Assembly (NCBI GenBank): GCA_943735955.1
Contig: OX030967.1
Location: 5,159,083-5,223,082, forward strand
Direction: 5' to 3'
Length of the DNA stretch: 64,000 bases
From: Piscicola geometra
Lineage: Eukaryota; Annelida; Clitellata; Hirudinida; Piscicolidae
In this document: positions 6,906-64,000 of the stretch, in pieces
Layout of the letters: every line of letters starts with the position of its first letter
How positions within the stretch are numbered: position 1 is the first letter of the stretch
Translations under genes and position numbers: made by a program
Notes under the pieces: generated by a model
What the model was told of the DNA's origin: nothing
The model's input: the letters and a program-made list of their open reading frames with translations, nothing else
Database searches by the model: none

Positions 6906-23240
<16,335 letters not shown>

Positions 23241-42325: not shown

Positions 42326-42921
42326 TTAGGTGACTGCATCGCCCATCTCATGATTGGACAGCATCTTGGTCACGTGAGAAGAGAGTGAGCCTGATTGGCC
42401 AGTGTCTCGTCCAATGGCATGCTTCTGACCTCTTCTATGGTAGAGAGTGTTGACGAATGACCCAGTTTCCTTATCGGACCAGCCCTCATTGGTCAGAACG
42501 GAGGCCCTGGAGAAGGAGGGCATTGGTTGCTTGGAAGAGGAAACGGTGTCACGTGGTGGCTTCTCTTGAAGGTCAAAGAGGACGGGTTGTTTGGCAGGCG
42601 CAGTGGGAGGAGTCAGTTGCGAGTGGGCGTGGTTTGCGGCGGGAGGGGGAGGAGTCTTCTGCTTCATCCTCATTTGTATTCTTCGCATGCGTCTCCACGC
42701 CACTACGCACAACACGAACATCGCCAACGTCAAGGCAAGCACCCAGACAATACACAGCAGGAAGACCGTCTGGATGCTTTTGGTCTGGGAGATGAGAACG
42801 GTGAACTTGAGTTTCAGCTCCTCCAACGCGTCCGAGAGGCCGTCACCCGCAAAGAGGGAGTTGGAGTTGGAGTTGGTGAGTGCACTCGACCTGTAGAGGT
42901 TCTTCTCGATCACTTCGATGT
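42326..42921 (-). other. Collagen gene last exon: juxtamembrane helix, transmembrane segment, cytoplasmic tail
   Basis: The previous exon ends ...SVG plus A at a GTGAGT donor, and this one begins AC, giving Asn, so the join is in frame. It encodes a short helix ([18 protein letters not shown]), a hydrophobic span of about 27 residues beginning [20 protein letters not shown], a basic stop-transfer cluster ([14 protein letters not shown]), and about 115 residues rich in Pro, Ser, Gln and Lys ending at TAA. The basic cluster after the span predicts N-outside topology. Confidence 0.88.
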
Positions 42922-45900
42922 CTGTCGTGGTGGTGATTTGTGTGGTTATTTAGTGGTGGTATGTGTGGTTGTCGTGGTAATTTGAGTGGTTGTTTGGTGA
43001 TTGCCATGGTAGGTGCTTAATTAAAGTATTTATTTGTTTAGACTCCTTCAACTCCACCCCTCCATCCCCCATCCACACCCTCCATCCAGCACTCCACTCA
43101 CTCCCTCCACTCCTTCACTCTCAACCCCCTCACTCCCTCCTCCACTCCACTCACTTCCTCTACTCCATCTACTTCTTCACTCTCAACTCCCTCACTCCCT
43201 CCTCCACTCCACTCACTTCCTACAGACTGCGTTCCGATCTTGATGAGGAAGCAGCGGTGGTTGCCGTACGTGTTGACGCAGCTCTCACACGTGTCGTTGC
43301 AGGCCGAGGTCTTCTCTAGACATTCGTCAACATCTGTTGTGGTTGTTGTAGTTGTTGTTGTGGGGTGTGAATTTGGTTGTTGTGGTGGTGGTTGTTGGTG
43401 GTTTGTTGTTGATAGTGGTGGTGGTTGGTGGTTGTTGGTGGTGGTTTGTTGTTGATGGTGGTGGTTGTAGGGGTGTTTGTATTACTTGTTGTGTTTCATT
43501 TTTTCCGTAATTTTCAAGATGAAAAAAAAACTACAAACAACTCTTTGAAAGTCTTTTAAAATGTAATTTTAAAAAAGAATCCACACGAAGGAGCCGAACC
43601 TTCACATTTGAAGAGTGAGACGAGTTTGAAGCCAGTGTTGAAGCAGCCGCACCTGCTGGGGTTGCCACCTGAGGCTGCTATGCAAACCTGCGTGGTTGTT
43701 GTTGTGGTCGTTGTGGTTTTTGTGGTTGTTGTTGTTGTTGTGGTTGTTATGTGGTCGTTGTGAATGTTGTGTTGTTGTGGTGGTCGTTGTCGTCGTTGTG
43801 GTGGTTGTTGTGTTGTCGTCGTTGTGGTTGTTGCGTTGTGGTGGTTGTTGTGATTGTTTTTGTTGTGGTAGTTGTAGTAATTGTGGTTGTTATCGAAGTT
43901 ATAAGTTGTTTTTGGTGGTTTGAGTAGGAATAGTTGTAGTGATTCTAGATATTGCTGGCAATACTATAAAATTTTATTATTGTTATTATTATTTTAATTT
44001 AAATTTATTATTATTATTATTATTATAATTAAAAACGCACCTGTTGGCACCCCCCGTTGTTGATGGAACAGTCGATCTGCAGCTCAGTGGTGGGAGCAGT
44101 GCTGCCTGAGAAGTGTGAGTGCCAGGTTTGGGTCATTTTTCATTTTTTCATCTATTTTAACACTTCCTCACTCACTCACTCACTCACTCACTCACTCACT
44201 CACTCACTCACTCACTCACTCACTCACTCACTCACTCACTCACTCACTCACTCAATCACTCACTCACTCACTCATCCACTCACTCACTCACTCACTCACT
44301 CACCAGAAATGCAGTTTTTGTTGTTGAAGGCGAGAGTGAAGCCAGCCCTGCAACTACACTGAACCCTGAGGCTGCCCAGGTTGGTGCAGACCTGCTCGCA
44401 ACCGCCGTTGTCGTAGTTGCAAGGGTTCAGAGCTGGAAGAGTGAGTGAGTGTTGGAGGTGAGTGAGTGTTGGAGGTGAGTGAGTGTTGGAGGTGAGTGAG
44501 TGTTGGAGGTGAGTGAGTTGAAGGGTGAGTGAGTGTTGGAGGTGAGTGAGTTGAAGAGTGAGTGAGTGAAAGAGGTGAATTGAGGGATGAGTGAGTGAAA
44601 GAGGTGAGTTGAAGGTGAGTGAGTGAAAGAGGTGGATTAAGGGATGAGTGAGCGGTGAGGGTGAGATAAGATGTAAGTGGAGTCAAAATATAAAAAATAA
44701 ATCATCATAAGATTGCTTGATTAATAAAAAACGAAAACAAAAAGTGCTTTTGTACTATTGGAATTGCTATTTTACTATGCGACCAAATAATTATTCCAAT
44801 TAAAAATAATAAAAAGAATAAATAGTATTATAATTATAACAATTATTAATGTTGTTAATTCAATTATTAGAGGCCTACTGTTGCATTTGACGCTCTGATC
44901 CACCCTGACGACCCGGTCAACGACGGTGCACAGGCAGTACGCCTGCAAAACACCCCTCGAAGTCTGCACCACCTCACACAGTTGGTCGCAATTCAAACGG
45001 GAACAGAGGTCTTGTAGGGCTGTGGTGGTGGTGGAAGGGGTGGTGGGTTGAAGTGGTGGTGGAAGTGGTGGTGGATTTGTGGTGAATTTATAGTAGTTGT
45101 AGTAGATTTAGTAGTAGTTTTTGTAGTAGTGGTTGTAGTAGTGGTTGTAGTAGTGGTTGTAGTAGTGGTTGTAGTAGTCGTAGTTTGGTGTGGATAATCA
45201 TGCAAAAGAAATCTAGGGTGATGAGAAAAATGAAATAAAATTATATTCAATCAAAACAAATTCCAACAAAAACTCCAAAGAAAAACGAAGAAAAATAGTT
45301 AGAAAGAAAATATTAAGAAAAACAAAAACAAAAGTAAACTGACGGAGGTTTGAGCCAGAAGTGCCTGGGGAGCCTCTGGGACCAGGGTTTCCAGACGGAC
45401 CAATAGCTCCAGTAGAACCAGTGTAGCCAGTGTTTCCAATCACGCCACCGAAACCAAAGTTTCCCGTCGCTCCTGTACCTCCCGTGCTGCCGAATCGTCC
45501 TTCCTGGCCCGGTGCTCCTAACAGCCCACTAGGCCCCAAGACACCTTGAGGCCCTGGCATTCCCCGTGGTCCTGGACCTCCAAAGACCCCTAAAACACCT
45601 GTCCTTCCTGGCAGCCCCTGAGCTCCAGGCTGTCCCCTACTGCCTCTCAGTCCTGTTTCTCCAGTACTCCCCATCCTACCCGTGTCACCCAATGCCCCAG
45701 TAATTCCTCTGTTTCCTGGCTGACCCATTGGTCCAGAAGGTCCCATAACGCCTGGAGAACCATTCAGACCCGATGGTCCAACTGGGCCGGTGAAACCCGT
45801 GTCGCCATTGTCACCACGGGGTCCTGGTGCCCCAGAGTCTCCAGGAACCCCAGCTGATCCAGGGGGACCTGTGTTTCCAATCAAACCGGGGTTCCCGTCA

Positions 45901-48900
45901 GGTCCTGTGAATCCTGTGAAGCCTGTGCCTCCTTGCGCTCCTGGCCCACCTGGCTGACCATTCAAGCCAGGGAGTCCTGGACTACCCATCAGTCCATTGG
46001 GACCCAGTCCCCCATTGACACCAGGGTCACCAGGAACTCCAGGACTTCCTGGAAAACCTGGATTTCCAGGTCGACCCATATCTCCTTTCTGCCCTGGTGA
46101 ACCCGGTCCTCCCTTCGTGCCTTTGAAACCAACAGGCCCTGCTGGACCAGGAAAGCCTGGGTTTCCACTGGGACCAATGAGGCCTGTGGGTCCAGCAGGC
46201 CCAGTGTTTCCTGCAGGTCCAGGGGAACCTTGAGATCCTTTTGACCCGGGAGATCCAGTGTCGCCAGGACCACCTCTGACACCTGTTTATGTTGAGAGAA
46301 TCGAAAGTGTTTTGACGTGAATGACGATGATAGTTTATAATGAATGAAGTTTCTTACGAACTACTTGTCACATAACATGATTACATAAAAAAACATTTGT
46401 TAATTAGCAATATGTGTTAATGGAGCGGTACGATGCTTTTATAATAAATAATTGAAAATGTTTATTCTGAAAAAATTGGTAAAATACTGTCTTTGCAAAC
46501 AAAAATGCACCTTGAAGACCAGAAGGTCCTGGAAATCCTGTAGGTCCCTTGTTTCCAGGAGACCCAGGAAAGCCTGGAGCTCCAACAGCACCAAACGCTC
46601 CCACCGGACCAGGGGAGCCAGGCGGACCCAATGGTCCAGTGAAACCTATGGGTCCTTTCTGACCGGGTGAGCCAGGAAACCCTACAGGGCCGGTAGATCC
46701 TGCTACGCCATCAAATCCTGGGAGACCGGGCTGGCCTGGAATGCCTGGGTTGCCAGCAGATCCAGTTGCTCCTTGTGGTCCAGCAGGCCCTGGGGCACCA
46801 TTTGGTCCGGGAAAACCGTTAGGCCCTATTGCACCCACAACGCCATTGTTGCCTGGATTTCCTGGAAAACCACTATCTCCAAAGACTCCAGTACTTCCTG
46901 TAGCTCCGGTAGCACCGTTGACACCCATGCTGCCTGGAGTTCCTTCCATTCCAGGCCTGCCAGGCAACCCGGGAAACCCGTTTGGTCCGGGAAAACCAGT
47001 GCCACCTGGGATACCGTTTAATCCTGGAGAACCGTTAAAACCAGGTGAACCTTTCGAGCCTGCAAAGCCAGGTGAACCAGGACTGCCATTGTTGCCATTG
47101 AGTCCAGGTGCCCCAGTGTCTCCAGGTCCCCCTGGTCCGCCCGTTGGTCCAGGAAAGCCTGTAGGACCGGGAGATCCTGGAGCTCCATTGAAACCAGTTG
47201 CTCCTTGAGATCCTGGTTGTCCTGCAAAACCAGGATCCCCCGACAAACCGATAGGTCCTTTCGGACCCGGAAAACCATTGGGTCCAGTAGGGCCTTTGAA
47301 ACCGGGTTGACCAGTGTTTCCCGGAGACCCAGTGTCTCCTGTGAAACCCAGACTTCCAGCTCCTCCAGACAGACCAGGCTGACCAGGCACGCCTGGAAAC
47401 CCGTTTGCACCGGTGTCTCCAGGCGATCCAGGGAATCCTGCAGATCCAGTAAATCCTGAAGGTCCAGGGTCTCCCGTCGGTCCTGTGAAGCCCAAAGGAC
47501 CACTCGAACCAGGTGTTCCGGGTCTACCTGGGTTGCCAGGACTTCCTGGTAAACCAGATACTCCTGAAAAGCCAGTATCTCCAGTGCCTCCCACTCCGCC
47601 GCTCGGTCCAGTGTCACCTTGCGCTCCTATATTGCCTGCGGGTCCAGGAAAGCCTGGAAAACCTGGAGCTCCAGCCACTCCAGGAGAACCGCCTACCCCA
47701 GTTGGGCCTGGAACTCCTTTAGCACCAACTGCCCCAGTGTCGCCTTTGAAGCCGGGAAAACCTGGGTTTCCATTCAAACCAGCAGCACCAGGAGCTCCAG
47801 CAAAACCAGTGTTTCCAACTGCCCCGGTGTTTCCTGGTTGTCCTGGCATTCCGTTTGGTCCTGTTATTCCAGGCTGCCCTGTCGACCCAGTGGGTCCCCT
47901 GACGCCTGGACTCCCCTGGGAACCAAAGTTTCCATCTAAACCCAGTTGTCCTGGCGCTCCTTTACTCCCTGGCAGACCAGGAGCTCCCAGAAAGCCTGGA
48001 CTCCCAGCTGGTCCTGTTTGGTTAGTGTTTGAATTAGGCTTCGTTGTGTATTAGAGTGGTGATAGTGGTAGTGGGAAAAAGATGGCAATAAAATGCATTG
48101 ATAATATTATATTGAATTATTTTAATTGAAATTCGTGTTTTACAGTTGAAAATTACAGTTCATCCGCAAATATTGTTAAAAATCGAAAAAAGTAAAACAT
48201 ATAAAACCAGAATGAAAACAATTAGTAACATATGAGGTGAAACAAGCGTCGTTACCTGTATCTCCTATGGGCCCAGGTGAACCAGAATTTCCCGGTGCTC
48301 CGTCGCTTCCTCTTGCTCCCAACGGTCCAGGCGCCCCAGTAGCACCCATCATGCCCTGAGAACCATCGCTGCCTGGAGCACCTGGAAAGCCCTGATCTCC
48401 TTGTTGACCTACGTGGTGTGATGGTGGGGTGGATAAAAAGTTGGAAATGTAAACTGTGTTTTATAATTTTTTAAACGTATTAAAGAAGTATTTTAAAAGA
48501 ATGATGGAGCTTCCTTACCAATAGTTCCTTTAAAACCTGCATTTCCTCTGGGTCCAGGGGCTCCAGGACTTCCTGGACCACCGTTGAATCCTGGAGAACC
48601 TGGGTCTCCCGTATCCCCTGGAGTTCCAGAAACGCCTGAAGAACCAGTGAATCCTTGTTGCCCACCGAACCCTGGAGATCCAGGAGAGCCTGGTGAGCCT
48701 TTGGAGCCAGGAAAACCAGATGGTCCCACTGCTCCTGGGTTTCCTATAGTCCCTGTATCTCCAGGCTGTCCTGGGGAGCCTGGTCGACCCGGAAAACCAA
48801 CACCACCTAGAGTTCCGTTCAACCCTGGATCTCCAGTAGCTCCTTGAGGGCCTTCGAGTCCTGCATTGCCAGTGTTTCCTTGACCTCCAGGCGAACCAGC

Positions 48901-51900
48901 AGATCCGGGTACTCCTGGATCACCATTCAAACCAGGAAATCCAGGACTGCCTTTAAAACCCCTGGGACCCGGTGAGCCTGTAGCTCCAATGCCCCCACTA
49001 GGCCCTGGACTCCCTGTATTGCCATCAAATCCTCTTGGTCCTAAAGGTCCTTTGGGGCCTGATGGACCGTTAAAGCCAGGAGCACCAGGCTGACCAGCGA
49101 ATCCAGGATCACCACTGTTACCAGTACCTCCCAAGGCACCAGGACTACCGGGAAAACCTGGAGATCCTGTGTCACCAACTGCGCCTGTGTTTCCAACCGA
49201 GCCTGGAGTACCAGAAGCACCTATATTGCCAGGCGAACCGTTGGGTCCAGGTTGTCCTAGAGGACCAGTAGGTCCTTGAATCCCTGGATTTCCTGGGTTC
49301 CCAGGAAAGCCAATGGAACCTTTATTGCCTGGGAAGCCCGCTGAGCCCGGAGACCCGCTGTTTCCTGGTGAACCAGCAATACCGGGTGACCCTGAAAAGC
49401 CAGTGTTTCCCGTATCTCCAGTGAAGCCGAGTTGTCCGTCGGCTCCCCTAGGTCCTTTGACTCCTGCAACTCCCTGCAATCCAGGGTTTCCATTTGGTCC
49501 TGGCAAACCAGACGGCCCAGTATCTCCAGCAGCTCCTTTCCCTCCTGCCTGGCCAGTATCTCCTCGATCACCATCTGGTCCTCTGGCTCCAGTAGCTCCG
49601 AATGGACCAGGCTGACCCGGCAGTCCTGGGAGTCCAGTAGACCCCTTGAAACCGACATTTCCACTTCCCCCAGAAAGTCCTGGCAAACCAAAGTCTCCTG
49701 TGAAACCCTGACCACCTGGAGAACCAGCCCCTCCTTGCTCTCCTACTCTCCCATCTGAGCCAGGCTGTCCTGAAGTTGAAAAAAAAATAATTAAAATCAA
49801 AACGATCAACTTCATAGAACTTGTAAGATGAACGAAAACTATTAAGCTCGGAATTAATAGATATTTAAAAAAAGAGGATTATTAACCTGGGTTTCCATTA
49901 GGTCCAGGAGATCCAGCTAAACCAGGCAAACCTTTCAAACCAAGAGCTCCCACTGGTCCAGGACCCCCTGGGGCACCATTGTTGCCAGAGTCTCCTATCG
50001 CCCCCGGTAAGCCTGGAAAGCCTGCTTGTCCAGTATTCCCCTGCACTCCTGGTCTACCGGAAGGTCCAGGGAGTCCAGTGTTGCCGCTGGGTCCAGTCGA
50101 ACCGGGAAGACCAATTGGTCCTGGGAAGCCGATTCCCCCCGGAACTCCAGGTCCTCCTGGAGCTCCTTGCAGTCCTGTATCCCCTGCAGCTCCTGGAAAT
50201 CCCTGACCACCCGTGTCTCCTCGTGGGCCTGCGACACCATCTAACCCAGGAATACCTGGCGCACCCTGAGGACCGTTAGGACCAGGTGCGCCTTGTGCCC
50301 CGTTGGCTCCAGCAAGTCCCTGAGCTCCAGGTAATCCCGGGTTGCCAGATCGTCCAGTATCACCTCTATCTCCTGTTGCACCCAAGGCTCCTGGAAAACC
50401 TGGCGTTCCCGGAGAACCATTTGAACCGGCTACACCATCAACGCCCCTGGGTCCTGTATCTCCAATTGGCCCAGATGGACCCGTGAAACCATCGAGCCCA
50501 GAAAGTCCAGGGTTTCCTGGACTACCCGTGAAGCCTTGCGGTCCTTGAGGTCCTTGGCTTCCTGGTCCGCCTGGAGAACCATTTATTCCTGGTAATCCTT
50601 GAGGCCCAACAGGCCCTGGAAAGCCAGGAGCTCCTGGAAAACCAAGTGGACCTTGTTGGCCTGGTTGACCTGGAGCCCCGCTGAACCCAGGTAAGCCTTG
50701 CGAACCAAAAGTTCCGATGTCTCCAAAGGCCCCTGGATTACCTGGAAAGCCAGGACTGCCAGAATCTCCTTGTAATCCATTTGCTCCATTTGATCCAAGA
50801 AAACCTTTCGGTCCAGTGAAGCCTTTTGCACCAGGTGTGCCTGCTTGTCCTGGAATGCCTGGGTTTCCAGGCTGCCCGATACTTCCACTTTGTCCAGTTG
50901 CTCCTGGCAAGCCTGGTCTCCCTTGAGCTCCTGGAAGGCCTATAGGACCCTGTGGTCCAGGTTCTCCCGATGGACCAGGAAAACCTTGCCCTCCATCCCT
51001 CCCTCTTGGCCCTGGCAATCCGGCCTGTCCAAGACCACCAGGTGATCCTAATTCGCCTTTGGGACCATTTGGTCCGATAGGGCCTTTACCTCCAGTGGCT
51101 CCTGTAAATCCCTGTGGGCCTGCAAGTCCTTGTTGCCCATTTCCACCACCCGTGCCATCAAGTCCTGGAGGTCCTTGCGCACCCATAGCTCCAGTTCCTC
51201 CAGGCACTCCAGTGTCTCCTAAGGCGCCTGGACTGCCTGGAAATCCTGGTCTCCCCGCTGGTCCTGCCGGTCCAGTTTGACCCAAAGCTCCAATGGGTCC
51301 AGGGTTTCCTGTTGCTCCCAACGGACCTGGGTCTCCCATGTTCCCAAATGGTCCTTTGAAACCACTAGGTCCTTTTATTCCTTGAGGTCCTTGTGGTCCA
51401 ACGGGTCCGTTTAGGCCTGTACTCCCTTTCACTCCAGGAGCCCCAGAAAAACCTAGTTCTCCCACTGGTCCTGGCAAACCTGAGGATGTATTTTTAGGCA
51501 AGTAAAAATATTATTTTTTTACAAATTATTTCATCATATAAGTAATGAAATATTCTCAAATCTGAAGCCTAAAAATGAAATTTTATTGAAAAAACAATTT
51601 AAATAATTTAAACGCTACAATACCTGTATTTCCTAAGGGTCCTGGGAAACCAACTAAACCAGTAGCTCCAATGTTTCCTGGCTGACCAGTGCTTCCTTGA
51701 GGACCAGCCACTCCTGCAGGCCCAGCAAGCCCAGGGTTTCCAGGCGCTCCAGGTGACCCAACAGTTCCAACGTTTCCTTTTCTCCCGGGTCCCCCTGGTG
51801 AGCCGTTAGTTCCAGAAATGCCTTGATTGCCATTGAGGCCTGGCAGACCAGTTTGGCCACTAGCTCCAGGGCTTCCAGTGAAACCTTGACTTCCTTGTGG

Positions 51901-54900
51901 GCCTGGTGAGCCCGGCAGTCCCTGAGAACCAATCGAACCGGGAAAGCCAGCTTGCCCTGAGTTTCCAGGCGATCCAGCTATGCCGGGCAGTCCTTGCACG
52001 CCAGGACTGCCATTGCTTCCGTCAGGTCCAGGCAATCCAGGTGCGCCTATGAAGCCTGGCGCTCCTGAAAAGCCTTGAGGGCCTTGGAAGCCTTGACTGC
52101 CAGACAACCCTACAGGCCCTGTAGCGCCTGGGTTGCCAATGTTTCCTAATGTCCCAGGGTTTCCTGGGTTTCCAGGTTGACCTTGTGCTCCTGGTTGTCC
52201 TATTGAGAATTTATTTGTCGTTTGTATTTGTTTAAAAAGTTAAAAAATAATATATATATCAACAACATAATTTCAAAAGTATAGATTTGAATAAAAAAAA
52301 CAAAAGTAGATTATAACAAACCTGGGTTGCCAGATGGACCAGTTGCACCAGGAAAGCCTGGCGATCCAGCCTGGCCAGTGAATCCTTGCTGACCAACTAC
52401 TCCCTTGTTTCCAGGGTTTCCAGGGTTACCTGGGAGTCCTTCATCGCCGGGTAAACCTGGTGACCCGCTGAATCCTTGAAGACCCGGCGCCCCAGGGTTT
52501 CCGTTAGAGCCTGGATCTCCGTTGAAGCCCGTGTCACCAGGAGCTCCAGTGCTTCCTGTAAAACCTTGGATTCCAGGCAGTCCAGGCGCTCCCGGAAGAG
52601 CATCCGGTCCTGGAAAGCCAATGAAGCCGTTGGGACCAGGCTGTCCTGGAGAACCTTGTGGTCCAGTGAAGCCTGAAGGTCCATTTGCCCCTGATGGTCC
52701 GATCGAACCAGGATTTCCTGGGTTTCCATCTGAGCCTGGAGCACCAACTGAGCCTGTAGCTCCTAAACTGCCAGGCTGTCCCGCGAAACCAGTGCCTCCA
52801 GTAGCTCCAATCGACCCAGCAGCACCTGTCGCCCCCCTCAAACCAGAGAGTCCTGGAGCACCTGCTTGTCCAGGTCTGCCACTGCTGCCTGGAGAGCCTG
52901 CATTGCCAGTCGCACCAATGGGGCCTGTAGATCCGGGCTGACCAGTTGCCCCAATTGGCCCTTGAGGGCCTTGGAAACCCGTTTGTCCTAGAGAGCCTGG
53001 CGTACCTGGCTGACCTGCGGTTCCTGGAGATCCCGTGTCTCCGAAAGCACCTGGACTGCCTGGATTACCTGGTTGACCTGCGCTTCCTTGAACACCAGGC
53101 GTTCCCGGGTTTCCTGCAGAGTTTTCAGTTTAATAGTCTGAAAGTTTGCAATGTATCTTTTGAACAGGAATTTTTAACAAGATAAAATGCTCGTGGAGTA
53201 AACCTATGAGATTAAAAGTGAATCGAGTTTTTTTTAAACTAACCAGGGCCGCCTAGAGAGCCTCTATCTCCAGTGTCGCCTGCATCCCCAGAAGGGCCGG
53301 TGAAGCCAGTGAATCCATTCGGTCCCGGAGAACCAGGAGCTCCTTGCAAACCAGGAAGTCCTATACTGCCAGGGCTACCAGGTACTCCTGCATTTCCTGG
53401 CTGTCCATTCTGCCCTGGCGTGCCTGATGCCCCAGTAGCTCCTTTTGCCCCCTGTGCTCCGAGCCCACCAGGCTGCCCTGGGCCTCCCGGAGACCCTGCT
53501 GGTCCTTTAATACCTGGTTGACCTGTGTCACCAGCACTTCCAGGGTTTCCCGCTTGGCCAGTGAATCCTTGCGAACCTTTGGCTCCTGCTACTCCATCAG
53601 ATCCTGCTTGGCCAGGATTACCGGTGAATCCAGTGCCGCCTTGCACTCCTGGTGCACCTGTAGATCCGAGAGCACCTGGGCCTCCTACGGCTCCAGACTG
53701 ACCTGCTTGTCCTGCAGGACCAGTGTTTCCTGGCGGACCTTGTCGTCCTGCCAGTCCTGCAACTCCAGTCGCACCAACTAATCCTGCTCCTCCATTTTGT
53801 CCTGGACTTCCTGTTGCTCCCTGAGGCCCAGCAGTTCCCGTAGCACCCGTGAAGCCCGGAAAACCCAGGCCTCCAGATGGACCGGGAAATCCAAAAGGTC
53901 CTTGCGCTCCAGGCACCCCAGGCGCTCCTAGTACTCCAGGCTGGCCTACAATTCCAGGCTGTCCAGGCACTCCTGCTGAACCAGGAAAACCTGCCGTGCC
54001 TGGTTCTCCAGTGGCTCCCGTGAAGCCTGAAGCTCCTTGCACCCCTGGGTTCCCTGCCGATCCGGATAAACCTCTTGGGCCTTCAGGTCCTAAATGTGGA
54101 TGTGAGGTAATGAATAATAAGAGATGTCATAAATTATAATACTATTTTTAAACCATCACTATTGTAACCAAATAGGGTAGAATAAAAAGTAATAGTTGTA
54201 ATAAAATTTAATTTAAAAAAAACCATAAATGTTACAACCAACCTTGTAATCCAGGAGATCCTAGGGGCCCAAGCAATCCAGGCGCTCCAGCTACTCCAGG
54301 TGACCCAGGTGTGCCATCTTGGCCAGGGGGTCCTGTTGAACCAGGCAAGCCTGTGTTACCTGCGTTACCGGGAAATCCTGTGAAACCATCTGAGCCTCTA
54401 GCACCCTGCGAGCCTGGAGCCCCTGGTCCTCCTTTTAAGTGGTTAGAATATTGTTTAAATATTTATAACTTATTACTTCAAAATTGAAAGTATTCAGTTT
54501 TCTAAATTTTATTAAATTGGAATAAAAAATTCAAAATTGTCACCTGAGATTCCAGGCGCTCCTACAGGTCCAGTAAAGCCCGTTCCACCAGTAGCCCCTA
54601 CTACGCCAGAAGGCCCAACAGGTCCAGGACCACCGGGGGTGCCTGGGTTGCCAGCAGGGCCTGTCTGACCAATGGTGCCTGTGAAACCCGTGAAGCCAAC
54701 ACCCCCTTGAGGCCCTTGCTGACCCGGAAGACCAGCATTTCCTGGAGATCCAGTTGCTCCCTTGCTTCCTGGATCTCCATTCACCCCAGCCACTCCTTGC
54801 GGACCCATTGGTCCAGTTGAGCCCTTTGCTCCTGGTGAGCCGCTGAACCCAGGTAGACCGTTGTTGCCTGGATTACCGTTAGCACCAGGCGTTCCTTTAG

Positions 54901-57900
54901 GACCGGCAACGCCTATAACGCCTGGATTCCCTGGATTTCCCGCCACACCTGTGTCTCCTGCAAGACCTGTAGCACCGGTAAAACCTGTCCATCCAACCCC
55001 CCCATCAACACCAGCAAAACCAGGAGATCCAGGCTGTCCTGGAGATCCGGCTGATCCTGAAAAGCCTTGTGGTCCTTGTGGGCCTTGGAGCCCTTGTAAA
55101 CCAGGCGACCCTTGTGCCCCTTGTCTCCCAGCTCCTCCAGGGTTCCCAGGCGTTCCAGCTGACCCTGGTAATCCTACCAAACCAGGTAGACCCGTTGGTC
55201 CCAAAGAACCAGGAGTGCCTGGGTTACCGGCCTGACCCACACTGCCTTGAGGACCAGTGAAACCTTGCGGTCCTGTGTCTCCAGGCAAGCCGAGAGGGCC
55301 TGGTGATCCGGGTTGACCACTCGTACCAATCGGCCCTGAGTCACCAATAGCTCCATTTGCTCCTGGACTTCCTATGGATGCGGAGGTAACTGTCATGACT
55401 TTTCTGTCACTACTTTATTTATATATTTAACATTTATTTAACAATGTTGATTCTAACATTTGTAACTAAGTAATATGCAATACATTACTTAGATGCCTAT
55501 TTTTTTTCGATTTTTATTTTACATTTATTTCGTATGATGAGGAATAAAACCCGTTCGTTAGAGTTTATAATTAGTTTTTGGTTACCAACCTTGCGGTCCG
55601 ATTGGTCCTTTGAATCCTTGTTGTCCAGGAAACCCTACACTTCCGGCAGGACCTTATTAAAAAAAGTGAAAAGTTGTTAAAAGCAAAACTTAATTTTTGA
55701 GTTTTATTAAAAAATAAAAAAACTTTTTATTTAGACTAAAAAATAAAAAACTTTTTATTCAGACGAAAAAATTATGTAATTTAACCAGTGTTTCCTTGTG
55801 ATCCTAAACCTCCAGAGATTCCCGGAAGTCCTGGTTGACCTTGTGGGCCTTGCTGTCCTGGAGAGCCATTAGGGCCAGGAACTCCTGTTCAAAAAGTTAT
55901 TTCGATAGTTCAGAAAGATAGTAAAAAATTTAAAAAAATAACTTGTTGAGAGTAAAAATAAATATTTCTTATAATTAAAAGTAAATATATAAAATTAACA
56001 ATTTTCCAACTGATGAAAGCATAATTCACCTGAAACGCCAGGAGCTCCAGTACCTCCTTGCACACCAGGACCTCCCAGCGGACCAAAAGCACCTTGTGCA
56101 CCGGGGGCACCAGAAGGGCCAAGAGAACCAGGTTGTCCTGCCTGTCCTGGACTTCCAGCCACTCCAGGGATACCAGGGGAACCATTTGTACCAGGAAAAC
56201 CAGGCGTTCCGGGTTGGCCAAGCGAACCAGCAGCCCCATTGGGTCCCGTAGGTCCTACTAGTCCGATGTTTCCCGTGTTTCCGGGCAGCCCAGGTGCACC
56301 AGGGGAACCAGTGAATCCAGATTGTCCAACCGATCCTGGAAATCCAGGCTGTCCCGGATTGCCATTGAAGCCTGGAGAGCCTGGTCCTCCTCTTACCCCG
56401 GGAGACCCAGGCAAGCCAGATGACCCGGTGAACCCTGGCAAAGATCAAACTTGATGTTTTAGTTTATTTGAAAAAATACTTTTGAGAAGAAAACATTCTT
56501 TTTGATAAAATACTGTGAAAAATACATCTTGGTTTTTTAAACTAATAATTCAATTGCATTCAAAGTTTCTTTAGTTACTAATTATAAAATATTTATATTG
56601 TTTTTCTCAATCGTTTTAGTTACTCTTGCTGAATATATTTTGATTTCAATTAAAAGTTTTCCAAACCTGTAGCGCCTTGCGAGCCGGGGAATCCAGGACT
56701 TCCAGAAGAGCCAGGTGATCCAGCACTTCCAGGAGCTCCAGCCACTCCAGGTGTCCCTGTGGCTCCTGTGAAGCCCTGAGGCCCATCCAAACCAGGCAAC
56801 CCTGCAGCTCCTGGAGAGCCCAATGGTCCAGCGGGTCCTGTTGGTCCTGTCGAACCCAATGGGCCCGGAGAACCAATAACTCCTGAAAAGTAATAAAAGT
56901 GTTTATTACGTTGTGAGAAACTTTTCTGAAAAATCAAATCAATGAGTTAATCAAATTCACGAATCTTACATGTTTTAATAGACATACAAATATATATTAT
57001 ATATTAGTGTATATGTTGCGGTGTTTCACGCCTGTCAAGAGTGACAGTTGCGTACCTTGATGCATTTTAACAACGTATAATTTTTTAAATATATTTTTAT
57101 TATTTATTTACATTTATAGATTGTATAAACCTTTATTCGATAAAAAGATGTAATTTTGTATGCAAAAAATCAAATAATTGCTCCATACCAGCTGAGCCTG
57201 GAAATCCCGGGAGTCCAGTAGCTCCGAGCTGTCCAGGTGTTCCATCCGTGCCACGATTACCCGCCTGACCCGATGGTCCAGTGGGTCCACTTGGTCCAGA
57301 AGGTCCTGCCGGTCCGGGAAGGCCTTGAGGTCCGGCAAAACCAGGCTGTCCAGGAGTTCCAGAAGCGCCTGCAGATCCAGGTGCTCCAGCTAATCCAGTA
57401 GCTCCTTCAGGGCCTGGAAACCCTGGGGCTCCAGAGGGTCCAGTGAATCCAGGAGCACCTGGCAATCCCGGAAGACCTGCACCACCGGGAAAACCAGCAC
57501 TGCCCGGGGAACCAGTGTTTCCCGTAGGACCTAGTTGACCAGGGTTACCAGGAGTTCCCGGGTTGCCCGCTGGTCCAATTACACCTTGTACCCCGGGTAG
57601 ACCTGCAACTCCGACTGTTCCAGGCAAACCAGGCTGTCCTGTATTGCCTTGAATACCTTTAAATCCTGGTTGGCCTGAAAAGCCTTGTTCTCCCTGGAAA
57701 CCAGGAGACCCATTGGGTCCTGGTGATCCAGAAAAACCTGCATATATTGAACAATTAGTGGTATAATTCATCATGAATTAAAACATTTAAATATTTAAAG
57801 TACTCATTTCATGAAAGAAATTCAACAATAAATAATAAAAAGAATAGAAACTCATAAAAATCACCTTGTGGACCAACATCGCCAGTGACTCCTTGGACTC

Positions 57901-60900
57901 CCTGCTGGCCAGGTGCACCAGGGCCTCCAGGAAACCCTCCAGAGCCACTTCTTCCAGTCGGTCCAGTGTCTCCAGGCGCTCCCTGTGTTCCAGGCAGACC
58001 CGGAGAGCCTTTCAAACCACTTTGTCCATTCAAGCCTGGATTTCCAGGCGCTCCAGGACCCCCAGACGCGCCGGTTCCTCCTGGTGAACCCTTGACTCCT
58101 GCTTGGCCTGGCTGTCCCTGGTTTCCTGGGTCTCCTTGCCTTCCCGCTGGTCCAGTGAAGCCGGGTCCTCCATTAAGACCTGGTAAGCCTGGAGCTCCAG
58201 GTGATCCCACAACACCCGGAAAGCCCACTCCGCCAGAATTGCCTGTGTATGAAATACATTTTAAAACAGTGTATTTTTTATTTTAAAACTTAAAAAAAAA
58301 AGAATTTTGAAAACAACGTATAAAAACACAAAAATAAAAATCATAACTAAAAAACGAAAACCCCACATAAAGATCTCCGGTTAATGTACTCATGAAGCAT
58401 GAATAATTCTATGATGCACACATGAGCGACATGGCTTACCGGGCAGTCCAGGGCTTCCAGCGGGTCCAGTGGCTCCCAGAGGACCAGAAATACCTGGAGA
58501 ACCCGTATCTCCCGCGGCACCAGCACTGCCTGGCAAGCCTACAGCTCCGACAGCCCCTGGAGAACCGGGTAGACCACTATTTCCTGTGTCTCCTTGCTGG
58601 CCAGCTCTTCCGTTTCCTCCAGGTGCACCTGAAGGACCTTGAGGTCCTGGGAAAAAATGAAAAAGGTTTAATTATTTTCAAGGAAATTAATTAATGAAAT
58701 AGGATAGCTAGCTATAAAGCATTAAATACTTGAAATTATATGCTTACCAGGAAATCCTCGATTTCCAGGGTTTCCAGGTGAACCAGCAACTCCAGGAAAG
58801 CCAGTACTTCCAAGAGGCCCAGGACTTCCAGTGGAGCCCTTTGGACCTTGGTTTCCTTGCACTCCTGGTCCACCATTGGGTCCAGTTGGGCCTGGTTGAC
58901 CAGCAGGTCCTGTGTTTCCAATGGGACCGGGGTTTCCAGGAGCTCCAGGACTTCCTGGAGAACCCCTGTCTCCCGGCAGACCAGCATCTCCTGGGCTCCC
59001 AGGAAAGCCTGCAGGTCCTGAAACACCTTTGCTGCCTGGTGTGGAAGAATCAATCGAAAAACTTTTCGACACCAAACTATTTTATTTTTCAGAAATCAAT
59101 TGATCAAAGTTATAGTCACTTAAGTTTTATGAGAAAACTAGTTTTAATAAAAATCATGATTTCACTCAAATAATAATTCTACCTGGAGATCCTAGGCTAC
59201 CGGGTGATCCAGGGGAGCCAGAAGGTCCAATGCTTCCACTGGCTCCAGTACCGCCTGTTTGACCTTGCGTACCAGGCAATCCTGGACTTCCATTAGCACC
59301 CGGACTGCCAGCCGAACCAGCAGGACCAGTGTCTCCTTGGATACCAGCGTTACCAGGCACCCCTGGAGTGCCTGGAGAGCCAGATGGTCCAGTCATTCCT
59401 GCTGGACCAGGTGCTCCGGGAGATCCAGGTGGACCTTGTGAACCAGGAGTTCCTGGAAATCCTGTGGAACCCGGAGCTCCTTGACTGCCTGGCAAGCCTG
59501 GAGCTCCTTGAACGCCTGGATTTCCAGACACTCCAACGAGACCAGTTAATCCTTGAGGGCCTGCTGAACCTGTCGCCCCTTTCACACCTGGAGACCCCAC
59601 AAAACCACTGGCCCCTGTGTTACCAGCCTCCCCAGGTCTTCCTGAAAAACCTGTCGATCCAGCTGGGCCCGGACCACCCGGCTGACCTGGACTGCCTGCT
59701 GTACCTGTGAAGCCTGTGTCTCCTGGAGCGCCTGTAGCAGAAAAACAGTTTAGTAAAAAAGATTTTTGTTATTAAAAAAATTATTAATTATATCTAAATT
59801 TGTAAAGTGGATTTAGGATTTCTCTAAAGCTGCCGCTGTGGCTTTGCTTGAAATAGTAATCAAAAGATTAAGATCCCACCTGCTGGACCAGGTGCGCCTG
59901 GTGACCCATTAGGAGAAGGGTCACCAAGAGGGCCACTCGCTCCAGGACCGCCTTGACTTCCAGGAGCTCCAGCCACACCTGGAAGACCAGGAGCGCCTGG
60001 GTTGCCAGCTTGACCTGGTAAACCATTCAATCCCGGAGAACCCGCAGGCCCTAGCCTTCCTGGAGCCCCCGCGAGACCCGTAGATCCTGGAAAGCCAGGT
60101 AAACCATCGCTTCCTGTGGCGCCTTTCGTGCCGGTTAAGCCTGTGCCCCCTGGTGCCCCAGGGAATCCTGCACTGCCAGCTTGACCACTTGGGCCTGGAC
60201 TGCCTTTTGGACCTGTCGCACCGCTGTCCCCATCAATACCTGGAACACCTACATTACCCGTGAAGCCTTGCTGGCCAGAAGAACCTGGTAGCCCATTTGG
60301 ACCGGCCACACCAGGTAAACCTGTGAGTTAAAGTTGAAATAAAAAAACAACTTGATTTATTTAGTGTATTTTAAATATATATAAAATAAATTAAACAATG
60401 GAAGAAAAAAGAATTTTTTGAAATGTGAAATAAATTTGCAGCCTAACAAAGAAAAAAACTTTTAACTGACCAACAATGCCGGGCTGACCGGGAGAGCCAG
60501 CACTACCAGGCGCGCCTTTAGAGCCCACGTCTCCAGCATCTCCTGGGAGTCCAGTTGCCCCAGCAGACCCCGGTGTTCCAGTAAATCCCTTTGAGCCATC
60601 CTGACCCGGAAAGCCAGGTGCCCCATTTAAGCCCGGATTTCCAGAAGGTCCGGGTGCCCCTGGGGTTCCAGTGTTTCCGGGAGTTCCCAGTGGCCCTGTA
60701 GCTCCAGGCTGGCCCCTGTCTCCAACTGGTCCAGTGAAGCCTTGTGGGCCTGTTGGGCCTGGAAAACCTTGGAATCCTGTATTGCCCGGAGTGCCTGCAC
60801 TGCCTCTCGGACCAGGAACCCCAGGACCACCGTTTTGACCTTAAAAGTAGTTTTGTATTTAATCACAATAACACAAATTAGTAATAAGTAATTTTCCAAT

Positions 60901-63900
60901 AATATAGTTTTAAAATATATACAAATAATTTTTTTAATATTAATGTATTATAATATGCAAACTCATACCGGGTGTCCCAGGGGAACCAGCAGACCCTGGG
61001 TTTCCTTTGGTACCCGGTAGACCAACTGGTCCAGAGAGGCCTGTAGGACCAGTGGGTCCAGGCAGCCCTGGGAAGCCCTGAGATCCGGGTCCTCCAGGAA
61101 TGCCTTGGTTTCCAGAAATTCCGTTGTTACCAGGAAGACCTGGTTGGCCACTAGGTCCTGTTGAACCAGCTGGACCAGGTGCGCCGTTGTTGCCTTGGGG
61201 AGGGTGAGTTGGGTTGGAGTCTGGTTTTTATGTAGCGATCCGTTAATAATCACATGGATTATTTAATTAATAATGACATGAAAGCAAATTAAATTATAAA
61301 TGTTTAATAAATTGAAAATTTTAAATAGTTTTATACTATTATTAACATCTACATATTCCTTACTAAATTCTTGATTGGAAAATACAGAACCTGGATTTCC
61401 CGGTAAGCCTTTCTCTCCTGGAAGACCAAGACCACCCAGTGGTCCTTTAGAGCCAGGAAGTCCTATTGTTCCTTTGAGGCCTGGGAGACCTATCGTACCA
61501 GTAGCCCCTATGCTTCCTGATCGACCAGTGGCTCCGGTGGGCCCAGGGGCTCCTGCCTGACCTGGAAACCCGGCTTGGCCATTTGGACCTACACTGCCTG
61601 TGCCCCCTGTGAATCCCACTCCTCCTGTGGGCCCTGGACGTCCAGGAAAGCCGATGGAACCAGGGGTCCCGTCTTGACCATTCAGTCCTGGCTGGCCTGA
61701 ATTTCCTGTTGTAAATTTGGGTTCATGTTAATCATTCAGTGAAACTACGTTATATTTTTTGCTATTCATAAATACCAGATTTAAATTATTAAATCTTATA
61801 AATGCAATACTGAATCATTTATTTTTAAAAAATGTTAAATTAAAAGTTGAATCGTAAAAAAATTTATAACTTTTGATACTCACCTTGCAAACCGGTTGCG
61901 CCTTCAAATCCCGTTGCTCCTTGTGGCCCAGTGGGTCCTTGAGGGCCGGGATTTCCAGGTGACCCGGGAAAGCCAGAATTTCCTGGATTTCCTGGAAGCC
62001 CTAGAGAGCCAGTCGCTCCAGTGAATCCGATAGTTCCTGCAGTTCCTGGGAAACCGGGAAGTCCTGGCAGGCCAATGGGTCCAGTCTGCCCAAGAGGACC
62101 TGAAGAACCTGGTAAACCAGCTGCTCCTGGACCTCCCGAAACCCCAGGTTGTCCTTGAACGCCCTGTGAGCCAGCATTGCCTGGGAGTCCTGGTGCCCCT
62201 TTCGAGCCGGGAGAACCAGTGCTGCCAGCATTTCCATTCAGTCCAGGTAAGCCAGCATTGCCAGGGTTTCCCGCTGGCCCTAAGATGCCAGTGTCTCCCG
62301 GAAGTCCTGGAAAGCCTGTTCCTCCAGCCTGTCCAGGAGTGCCTGCACTTCCAACTCTCCCTGGTCCGCCTGCTGGTCCTTGTGCTCCGGGACTTCCGGC
62401 CGGACCAAACCCTCCAGGGTTTCCTGACGGTCCTTTAGGGCCAGCAGGACCAGGAGCACCATTTGTTCCAGGATTTCCAGTGTCTCCAGCCTGTCCCGGT
62501 TGACCTTGTGATCCGGGTAGTCCATCACTGCCCGGCGCTCCTGGAAGCCCGTTGGAGCCTGGAAAGCCAGCAATTCCTAATGGCCCGGGTTGACCACTTT
62601 GTCCCTGAGGTCCCGTAACACCTGGGTCACCAGCAGCTCCTGTTCGCCCAATAGCCCCTCTCACTCCCACCACTCCAGTTGGCCCTAATGGTCCGGTCGA
62701 TCCTGTGGCACCCGGAAGACCAATCCCTCCAACGTTTCCAATCTGACCAGATAATCCAGTACCTCCGATGGAACCTGTGTCTCCAACAGGACCTGGGTCT
62801 CCCTTGATACCTGTAGCTCCTATACCATTGCTAGGTCCCGGGGGCCCGGGAGCACCCGTACCGCCTGTAGATCCTTGCTGACCTGGCGCCCCTAGCGGTC
62901 CCTGAACTCCTTGGAAGCCCACTCCTCCCGCTGCCCCAGTCGATCCAACGGGTCCAGGATTGCCTGGGATACCATCTATTCCGGGGGGACCTTGACCGCC
63001 AGGAAAGCCTGGACTCCCGTTAGGCCCTGGTGCACCAAGATTTCCAAGAGCTCCTTGCTGACCCACACCACCAGTATCACCTATTGGTCCTGGTAAACCA
63101 GTTGCTCCCACCTGTCCTATTGGCCCAGTTGGTCCAGGCAAGCCTGTGTTGCCAGTTCCTCCTTTTTGCCCTACAAAACCGGGAAATCCAGGATTTCCTG
63201 CGAGACCAGTGGAACCTCTAGGACCAGTATCACCAGGGGCTCCATCATTTCCTCTCGCGCCAGGAAAGCCTGGAGAACCAGGAGATCCGGGTATTCCCAC
63301 AACTCCTTTGGCTTGAGATCCCCCTGGAGTTCCTGGCAATCCGGGAGGTCCTGCAACTCCAGGGCTTCCGAACATCCCCACAGAACCACTAGGACCCGTG
63401 CTGCCCTTTGTGCCTACTGGTCCCGGGTCACCAGGACTCCCTTCGGGTCCTGGAGGTCCTTTAAGTCCTGCTGGTCCAGGATTACCTGGAAACCCTTGAG
63501 AGCCTGGATTGCCTGTTTGAATTTATTATTGTTATAAATATTCTAGAAGTTTGTTTTTGCTTAACAAATTCAACATTGTGCATCCTTCTCACAAACCTAA
63601 GACTCCTGGAGCGCCTCTCCCGCCTTCAGGTCCTGTGAAACCGGTCGTTCCGGTGTCTCCAGGTACTCCTTGAGCTCCTGGAAATCCAGTGGCTCCTAGA
63701 ATTCCTGGAGAACCTTTGATGCCTGGAATGCCTGCAGAACCTGGAATTCCCGCAAGTCCTGGGGGGCCCTGCTGCCCTGGATCACCCTTGCCTCCTTGTC
63801 CACTACCCGAAGGTCCTGTGTTTCCAACTAGTCCCGTGTCACCTTGTGCCCCCTGTGGTCCTGGTAGACCTGGATTTCCGTTTGGCCCACTCGGCCCAGG

Positions 63901-64000
63901 AAGACCAGGTGACCCAGGCATTCCTACAATGCCTGGATCACCATTCGGGCCAATTGTTCCTCTGTCCCCTGATGGGCCTTTGAGTCCCGGAAAACCAATG
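42326..64000 (-). CDS. Giant transmembrane collagen with EGF-like repeats (5' end outside the window)
   Basis: The minus strand encodes a long triple-helical protein. At least 25 Gly-X-Y exon blocks (about 45344 to beyond 64000) splice in phase into five exons with EGF-like Cys patterns (43217-45010), and then into one exon with a membrane segment and tail (42326-42921). About 4,900 collagenous residues lie inside the window plus about 375 after them; the N-terminus is not seen. Block junctions that I checked split a Gly codon after its first G, as is common in type IV rather than fibrillar genes. There is no fibrillar C-propeptide and no NC1 domain. The expected product is a type I membrane protein with an outer trimeric collagen stalk. 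I do not recognise a named orthologue. Frames on the plus strand here are antisense shadows. Confidence 0.93.
43217..45010 (-). other. Collagen gene: EGF-like exons
   Basis: Five exons: 44879-45010 ([14 protein letters not shown] ... YCLC), 44304-44432 ([16 protein letters not shown] ... CSCRAGF), 44041-44105 plus 43600-43687 (together [12 protein letters not shown] then VCIAASGG ... [11 protein letters not shown]), and 43217-43333 ([18 protein letters not shown]). The NGGCxQ and VDEC patterns are typical of EGF modules; VDEC suggests calcium binding. Phases agree throughout, and the first joins the last collagen exon as C|AC (His). Confidence 0.85.
43340..45190. repeat. Satellites in the introns between EGF exons
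   Basis: GTTGTTGTGGTGGT repeats (43340-43470 and 43695-43880), ATT repeats (about 43975-44030), a (TCAC)n array (44166-44302), GAGTGAGTGTTGGAGGT repeats (44440-44660), and AGTGGTTGTAGT repeats (45090-45185). Confidence 0.85.
45344..55372 (-). other. Collagen gene: ten large Gly-X-Y exon blocks, membrane-proximal half
   Basis: Approximate blocks: 45344-46282, 46510-48015, 48256-48408, 48520-49769, 49887-51481, 51624-52200, 52321-53113, 53245-54089, 54243-54431, 54542-55372. Each reads uninterrupted Gly-X-Y over long stretches, with donor and acceptor sites at the ends. The several blocks longer than 1 kb (up to about 1.6 kb) contrast with the short 45- and 54-bp exons of fibrillar collagen genes. 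Introns are short (about 100-230 bp), AT-rich and free of satellites. Confidence 0.9.
55590..64000 (-). other. Collagen gene: fifteen Gly-X-Y exon blocks, distal part
   Basis: Approximate blocks: 55590-55653, 55787-55885, 56029-56440, 56669-56882, 57190-57738, 57866-58242, 58439-58646, 58748-59037, 59183-59729, 59880-60320, 60472-60838, 60968-61193, 61388-61706, 61884-63512, and 63597 to the edge. Small interruptions of the triplet frame are visible, for example [12 protein letters not shown] in the block at 61884-63512 and [17 protein letters not shown] near 63800. There is no signal peptide, so the start lies beyond 64000. Confidence 0.88.

Follow-up and report, generated by a model that had tools for sequence, protein, structure and literature searches.

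Giant collagens with a predicted C-terminal membrane anchor in the leech Piscicola geometra

The 64,000-nucleotide stretch of chromosome 13 of the leech Piscicola geometra analysed here (the window; C13:5159083-5223082, C-numbers being chromosome numbers) carries, on its minus strand, most of a gene for a giant collagen that is predicted to be anchored in a membrane by its C-terminus through EGF-like modules. Genes of the same plan lie on chromosomes 2 and 12, and giant collagens on chromosomes 1, 5, 7 and 14 end in a hydrophobic span without such modules, so that the finding grows from one gene to a supported family whose C-terminally anchored giants number at least seven in the searched genome (171,024,195 bases, 66 contigs). 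Collagens, and giant annelid collagens among them, were already known; new are the C-terminal type I topology, the EGF stalk and the frozen length of three chains.

The helix was modelled with a Viterbi procedure in which glycine was rewarded at every third codon, stops were heavily penalised, introns were GT-AG and helix interruptions were permitted, and the gene ends 5' and 3' of the helix were joined by hand at splice sites. An earlier splice model, in which short introns were forced at helix interruptions, was superseded by this one, which permits register shifts. The full model of the window gene has 36 exons and encodes 5,749 aa with no internal stop; all 35 introns are GT-AG (median 178 nt), 33 of them in phase 1 and two in phase 0. 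It extends from 42326 to 67133 in window numbering, its 5' start lying ~3.1 kb outside the window, and encodes, from N to C, a signal peptide, an N-terminal domain of ~175 aa and 5,176 aa of Gly-X-Y, then four EGF-like modules and a membrane span, which is followed by a basic cluster and a tail:

67073-67133 (window-equivalent, beyond the window), minus strand: signal-peptide exon, from the splice model
65471-65690, 65883-66052 and 66310-66441 (window-equivalent, beyond the window), minus strand: exons of the N-terminal domain, from the splice model
64851-64922 (window-equivalent, beyond the window), minus strand: first collagen exon, from the splice model
63597-64688 (in-window part 63597..64000), minus strand: second collagen exon, carrying four of the N-terminal helix interruptions
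46511..63485, minus strand: 23 collagen exons, stop-free, all junctions in phase 1 (46511-48013, 48256-48408, 48519-49769, 49887-51470, 51624-52199, 52322-53113, 53244-54089, 54243-54431, 54544-55371, 55590-55652, 55786-55884, 56030-56434, 56667-56882, 57189-57737, 57865-58242, 58440-58646, 58748-59035, 59183-59731, 59880-60320, 60471-60839, 60969-61193, 61391-61705, 61884-63485)
45344..46282, minus strand: last collagen exon, 939 nt, from the splice model
44879..45019, minus strand: EGF module 1, six cysteines, first exon past the helix, from the splice model
44304..44432, minus strand: EGF module 2 (Pfam FXa_inhibition, 7.8e-10)
44041..44105, minus strand: first half of EGF module 3, from the splice model
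43600..43687, minus strand: second half of EGF module 3, joined to the first half in phase 0
43217..43333, minus strand: EGF module 4, with DVDEC, partial, of calcium-binding type (Pfam EGF_CA, 4.4e-4, under the cut-off)
42326..42921, minus strand: terminal exon with the juxtamembrane segment, the span, the basic stop-transfer cluster, a cytoplasmic tail of 125 residues and the stop TAA, from sequence and hydropathy

The 26 collagen exons form a stop-free helix of 5,176 aa, with 23 of the 24 internal collagen exons being multiples of 9 nt and all 25 collagen-exon junctions falling in phase 1. The helix has eight interruptions, all small, six of which lie within the first ~610 residues. At the triple-helix rise of 0.286 nm per residue, 5,176 aa correspond to a rod of ~1.48 micrometres. 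No chance expectation was computed, since 5,176 Gly-X-Y residues in one frame need none.

The helix is joined to EGF module 1 across a 324-nt intron (45.34 to 45.02 kb), phase 1 to phase 1. Within this intron the EGF frame is closed by stops, and no signal-peptide-bearing start could be seen by eye. On the EGF part, Pfam gave FXa_inhibition above its cut-off, and cEGF (8.2e-6) and EGF_CA below theirs; neither NC1 nor the fibrillar-collagen propeptide COLFI was found by Pfam in the C-terminal part of the gene or at its locus. The span comprises 21 residues with a mean hydropathy of 2.99, and the next 15 residues include six lysines or arginines and no aspartate or glutamate. The gene opens with a signal-peptide-like hydrophobic start (MIASKLLLLLLLSAVCRSQ). 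As the signal peptides at the 5' ends (by eye) together with the C-terminal span imply a type I orientation, a type I membrane topology, with one stop-transfer span positive inside, is well supported for the window chain as judged by eye and hydropathy.

An initial annotation of the window had described ~4,900 Gly-X-Y residues within it, spliced in phase to EGF-like exons and then to a membrane exon with a basic cluster, the helix lying N-terminal to the anchor and both an NC1 and a fibrillar propeptide being absent. Each of these statements is borne out, 4,924 residues of the helix lying inside the window, and both propeptide families occurring elsewhere in the genome. The stretch from 45.34 to 45.01 kb, over which that annotation had left a doubt, is taken up by the 324-nt intron. 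A signal peptide and a span, which it suggested seeking on the full protein, are both present as judged by eye and hydropathy, and the gene extends to a start outside the window.

Related giant collagens on other chromosomes

Searching the genome with the EGF part of the window gene gave a match at C2:14423138 (45% identity, E 4e-14) and a weak one at C12:6264740 (E 1e-3), each adjoining a giant collagen. In both genes a signal-peptide-like start is followed by an N-terminal domain resembling that of the window gene and by a 5,188-aa helix; beyond the helix come four EGF modules whose cysteines align with those of the window gene, with an IDEC/INEC module ahead of the span, and the membrane span itself. 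This repetition of the collagen-EGF-span order is the strongest evidence that the join in the window belongs to one gene. The heptad-like character of the juxtamembrane segment reached p 0.03 on chromosome 13 and 0.01 on each of chromosomes 2 and 12. The N-terminal domain of the chromosome 2 gene is 36% identical to that of chromosome 12 and 31% to that of chromosome 13, LYGNN and IWRP being invariant in all three. Against Pfam and the PDB, this ~175-aa domain had no convincing relative, the best matches (E 0.095 and 0.81) looking like chance; the domain (LYGNN...IWRP; loci L025, L031 and L033) is possibly a new domain family.

The helices of chromosomes 13, 2 and 12 measure 5,176, 5,188 and 5,188 residues. 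Counted from the 3' end, exon boundaries coincide within 18 nt at 16 of 25 positions between chromosomes 13 and 2, 13 of 25 between 13 and 12, and 17 of 19 between 2 and 12, while the maxima in 2,000 shuffles of exon order were 6, 8 and 7. Within 9 nt the corresponding counts are 2/25, 1/25 and 17/19, and the first two are reached by 228 and 1,320 of the 2,000 shuffles; the pairs with chromosome 13 do no better than shuffles at this tolerance because that gene is offset by mostly 7-16 nt. For the same pairs, 5 of 8, 6 of 8 and 4 of 5 interruptions of the helix, positioned from the C-end, match to within 12 residues, compared with maxima of 3, 4 and 3 in 200,000 uniform random placements, a null that ignores the clustering of interruptions at the N-end. 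The residues at X and Y showed no clear common register among the three chains, the best shifts scoring 0.125 (mean 0.106), 0.163 (mean 0.146) and 0.120 (mean 0.107). Length and register have thus been kept through a turnover of the X/Y letters, which we read as selection keeping three chains in step in one heterotrimer.

A Gly-X-Y scan of the genome, in which 150 of 28,049 candidates were scored, gave at least seven giant collagens. Besides the three EGF-bearing genes, the set holds one each on chromosomes 1, 5, 7 and 14, in which no EGF module was seen between helix and span; collagen matches on chromosomes 3, 4 and 11, whose 3-kb loci yielded nothing usable for residue counts, were left outside it. 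On chromosome 5, a signal-like start passes straight into Gly-X-Y, and the helix measures ~8,570 aa (~2.45 micrometres, from a rougher model), with 45 of the 60 internal exons divisible by 9 nt in length. At its 3' end the helix is joined in phase 1 to LQDEFNDVQ, followed by the span and a serine-rich tail. The genes on chromosomes 1, 7 and 14, with Gly-X-Y matches spread over 35, 28 and 26 kb, were read at their 3' ends only, where the helix is followed by a short segment (ALQDELSES, QLRSELDD and ALTDNNEDV, respectively), the span and basic residues. The helix-to-anchor joins of all four genes are possible in phase 1; those of three were selected among 3 (chromosome 1), 5 (chromosome 7) and 13 (chromosome 14) possible ones, and the selected join is the best scored for chromosomes 1 and 14.

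A hydrophobic span of 21 residues was present in all seven giant genes read to the 3' end (mean hydropathy 2.07-2.99). Within 15 residues of it, lysine and arginine are more numerous on the C side in six of the seven and equal on both sides in the chromosome 14 gene. A further cluster, on chromosome 15 (1.694-1.719 Mb), was dropped as a giant collagen; the 6 kb read there (C15:1718401-1724400) open in a low-complexity (GQQ)n array. Such an array scores as collagen under the Pfam model, and it was read at that end of the cluster only.

Comparison with known proteins

Threonine occupies 15.4%, 17.4%, 15.8% and 13.9% of the Y positions in the chromosome 13, 2, 12 and 5 helices and 2.4-4.1% of their X positions; in the 3' pieces from chromosomes 1, 7 and 14 it occupies 10.8-23.5% of Y. 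At a type-IV-like locus (C12:6168632, near NC1 domains at C12:6172 kb), Y comprises 0.7% threonine and 28% lysine plus arginine, a contrast drawn from this one locus and its 149 triplets, as three other collagen loci yielded no usable stretch. COLFI had 19 matches in the genome and NC1 (C4) had 12, none of them at the seven giant loci, which places the giants with neither the fibrillar nor the type IV collagens.

The helix of annelid cuticle collagen is ~2.4-2.6 micrometres long, and the threonine of Riftia cuticle collagen is reportedly glycosylated, at the Y position. In published excerpts, annelid cuticle collagen combines globular domains and a helix of very great length (PMC11766948), and giant annelid collagens measure 7,719-8,859 aa (PMC12403961); neither excerpt mentions a membrane anchor, and the latter mentions no EGF. 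The window chain resembles these collagens in its very long, nearly unbroken helix, its threonine-rich Y positions, its extra globular domain and its annelid origin, whereas its helix is shorter (5,176 aa) and EGF modules have been added. Given its modelled length, the window chain cannot simply be equated with 'the' annelid cuticle collagen, while the chromosome 5 gene falls in the published size class.

The initial annotation had set the architecture apart from known transmembrane collagens as mostly type II proteins with far shorter helices; the difference in length is a matter of general background, MACIT helices being far shorter than the window helix. The orientation is documented, the available excerpt on MACITs describing type II proteins whose helices are interrupted and whose N-terminal domain is cytosolic (PMC4678570). 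The window chain is membrane-anchored like these collagens (XIII, XXIII, XXV and COL-99 of Caenorhabditis elegans), but it has a signal peptide by eye and its span is C-terminal instead. Colmedins such as gliomedin, collagen XVII and scavenger receptors likewise carry collagen on a membrane protein, but are type II, without an EGF stalk and without such length. The order of parts is also that of streptococcal collagen-like surface proteins, with an outer domain, a collagen rod and a C-terminal surface anchor; these are bacterial, wall-anchored and short, and the likeness is one of analogy only. A collagen whose C-terminus is tied to the membrane via EGF modules would be the opposite of the known membrane collagens.

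The claim that no described family has this architecture is supported within limits. No C-terminally anchored giant collagen was named in the titles and abstract openings searched, most subscription journals lying outside that scope, and no complete annelid cuticle collagen gene with both ends was found in the same literature; the giant annelid collagens themselves are nevertheless in print. The collagen-EGF-membrane order that the initial annotation proposed to look for in other genomes recurs in the two paralogues of the same genome, whereas the public relatives found have the EGF-membrane part without collagen. These came from a profile of the three C-terminal parts, which gave 42 hits among 5.8 billion proteins. 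Two of the hits, from separate sources, cover the module together with its span, namely P0001 (325 aa, E 2e-65) and P0002 (274 aa, E 1e-50). In both, EGF modules, juxtamembrane segment, span and tail lie in a single open reading frame, P0002 lacking most of the first EGF module. Their identity to the leech chains is 34-43%, compared with 32-35% among the leech chains themselves, and the EGF-membrane family therefore looks old. None of the remaining 40 hits covers more than 63% of the query; fibulin, MEGF6 and SCUBE proteins share FXa_inhibition/cEGF-type modules with the window gene.

An AlphaFold2 model of P0001 from a two-row alignment was poor (mean predicted local distance difference test score, pLDDT, 51.5; predicted template modelling score 0.23). 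It contains one long helix, at residues 213-252, that corresponds to the span and whose residues 221-240 reach block means of 83-86; the model supports a helix at the span and nothing else.

A proposed mode of assembly and its alternatives

We consider it probable, as a joint reading, that these genes encode giant type I membrane collagens, that the three EGF-bearing chains are co-registered partners in one heterotrimer, and that the products tether or feed the cuticle; the trimer partners, the shedding and the cuticle location are points that we infer. In most kinds of collagen the chains associate at one end, and the helix zips up from that point. Here, three chains, probably one each from chromosomes 13, 2 and 12, would meet at the membrane of the endoplasmic reticulum via their C-terminal EGF/heptad region, the heptad-like juxtamembrane segment and the cysteine-rich EGF stalk would form the nucleus at the membrane, and the triple helix would zip outward from it, C to N. 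The rod would then reach the apical epidermal surface with its foot held by the cell and its N-terminal domain outermost, ~1.5 micrometres off the cell, and would either tie the cuticle to the epidermal cell or be cut in the EGF/juxtamembrane stalk and join the cuticle. The main cuticle collagens would come from the four genes without EGF modules (chromosomes 1, 5, 7 and 14) and be produced in the same way.

Such an arrangement suggests that the skin collagen of a worm can consist of cell-tethered rods. At the protein level, annelid cuticle collagens have been described for a long time; the end-to-end gene models presented here have an unexpected topology and make chain composition testable. 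The C-terminal anchor indicates where trimerisation could start, at the membrane, and suggests how rods of 1.5-2.5 micrometres might fold and be placed. We advance more tentatively, as not far short of an even prospect, the wider proposal that leeches, and perhaps annelids at large, make body-wall collagen as type I membrane proteins, with at least seven anchored giants, one of them of cuticle-collagen size (~2.5 micrometres), three EGF-stalked chains forming one heterotrimer whose register was frozen over ~5,180 residues while X/Y turned over, and folding outward from the membrane as a mirror image of the MACITs; the cuticle would then be a lawn of such tethered rods.

Several observations weigh against this picture. 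The gene is modelled from genomic sequence, its splicing resting on phase, on paralogy and, for the EGF-membrane part, on P0001 and P0002; these two hold no Gly-X-Y, and the link of helix, EGF modules and membrane span was seen in the leech genome only. A length-matched protein search (1,450 candidates) returned no full-length homologue, only two unrelated EGF proteins, and a search of proteins with the chromosome 1 anchor found nothing at E 1 among 234 candidates. The terminal exon of the window gene had a best match of E 0.002 in the rest of the genome, and the paralogous membrane exons were located by position and hydropathy. In the P0001 model, residues 174-216, which include the pre-span segment, have pLDDT below 50. 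Among the EGF-less genes, 15 of the 60 internal exons in the chromosome 5 model break the 9-nt rule, the chromosome 7 join that preserves the helix ranks only third of five by score, and the heptad scores are weak (p 0.56, 0.11 and 0.05 for chromosomes 14, 7 and 1). The charge after the span is not net positive on chromosome 5 (two lysines or arginines, three aspartates or glutamates) or chromosome 2 (five and five). The window helix, at ~1.48 micrometres, falls short of the cuticle-collagen length that the chromosome 5 helix reaches, and we only infer the surface location and shedding of the window chain.

The span could instead be a biosynthetic anchor only, used for trimerisation on the endoplasmic reticulum or plasma membrane, after which the stalk would be cut to leave a soluble cuticle collagen, the EGF-membrane part acting as a functional C-propeptide. 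Cuts at dibasic sites in MACITs and nematode cuticle collagens, which in the available excerpt may release them (PMC10538796), make this conceivable by analogy, and the terminal exon of the window gene, without a strong sequence match among the paralogues, and the excerpted description of annelid cuticle collagen as a long helix with globular domains (PMC11766948) would also suit it. However, the stretch from helix to span in the window chain has a single RXXR (RVVR, inside EGF module 1) and no dibasic pair, and tails of 27, 50, 112 and 125 residues are encoded beyond the span on chromosomes 2, 5, 1 and 13; we regard release as the sole fate of the chains as plausible but doubtful.

To a like degree doubtful is the formation of separate homotrimers by the three near-equal genes, their equal length reflecting inheritance or a packing period. 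The genes lie on different chromosomes and share no clear X/Y register identity, so that equal length could be inherited without co-assembly. Against this, helix length has stayed within 12 of ~5,180 residues and the interruptions in place, with X/Y changed beyond recognition, as an obligate common register would enforce.

It is very improbable that the EGF/membrane exons form a gene of their own next to the collagen blocks: the join is read from genomic DNA and P0001 and P0002 come without collagen, but the 324-nt intron matches in phase, closes the EGF frame with stops and shows neither a start nor a signal peptide, and the same adjacency with short introns recurs beside the giant collagens on chromosomes 2 and 12. 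Inflation of a repetitive collagen by the assembly, a known risk that the authors of the Alvinella study name for their own giants in the excerpt available (PMC12403961), is hardly credible given near-equal helix lengths on three chromosomes, an assembly (wrPisGeom1) described in its published excerpt as HiFi, 76-fold and of quality value 51.3 (PMC11134150), no N base inside the chromosome 13, 2, 12 and 5 genes, and repeated 25-mers (49, 2, 0 and 23, respectively) none of which has all its copies in modelled exons, five of those on chromosome 13 having at least one copy touching an exon.

Other features of the window and genome

On the plus strand of the window, at 9038-13677, frames resembling a non-long-terminal-repeat retrotransposon were named by eye (endonuclease/reverse transcriptase with YADD, RNase H, and a zinc-finger-like frame upstream). 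At 3396-5440, a 24-bp unit is repeated 85 times and is open in several frames on both strands; the window holds 184 tandem-repeat rows in all, a very high density. An open frame of 564 aa on the minus strand (31653-33347) is glutamine-rich and coiled-coil-like, with microsatellite-like runs. The annelid marker family PF16915 had no match in the genome, and as the controls gave none either, its absence carries no weight. Downstream of the chromosome 12 giant collagen, frames resembling an NHL/amidating-lyase gene were seen by eye, and the antistasin domain had 43 matches genome-wide, many of them on chromosomes 2 and 10.

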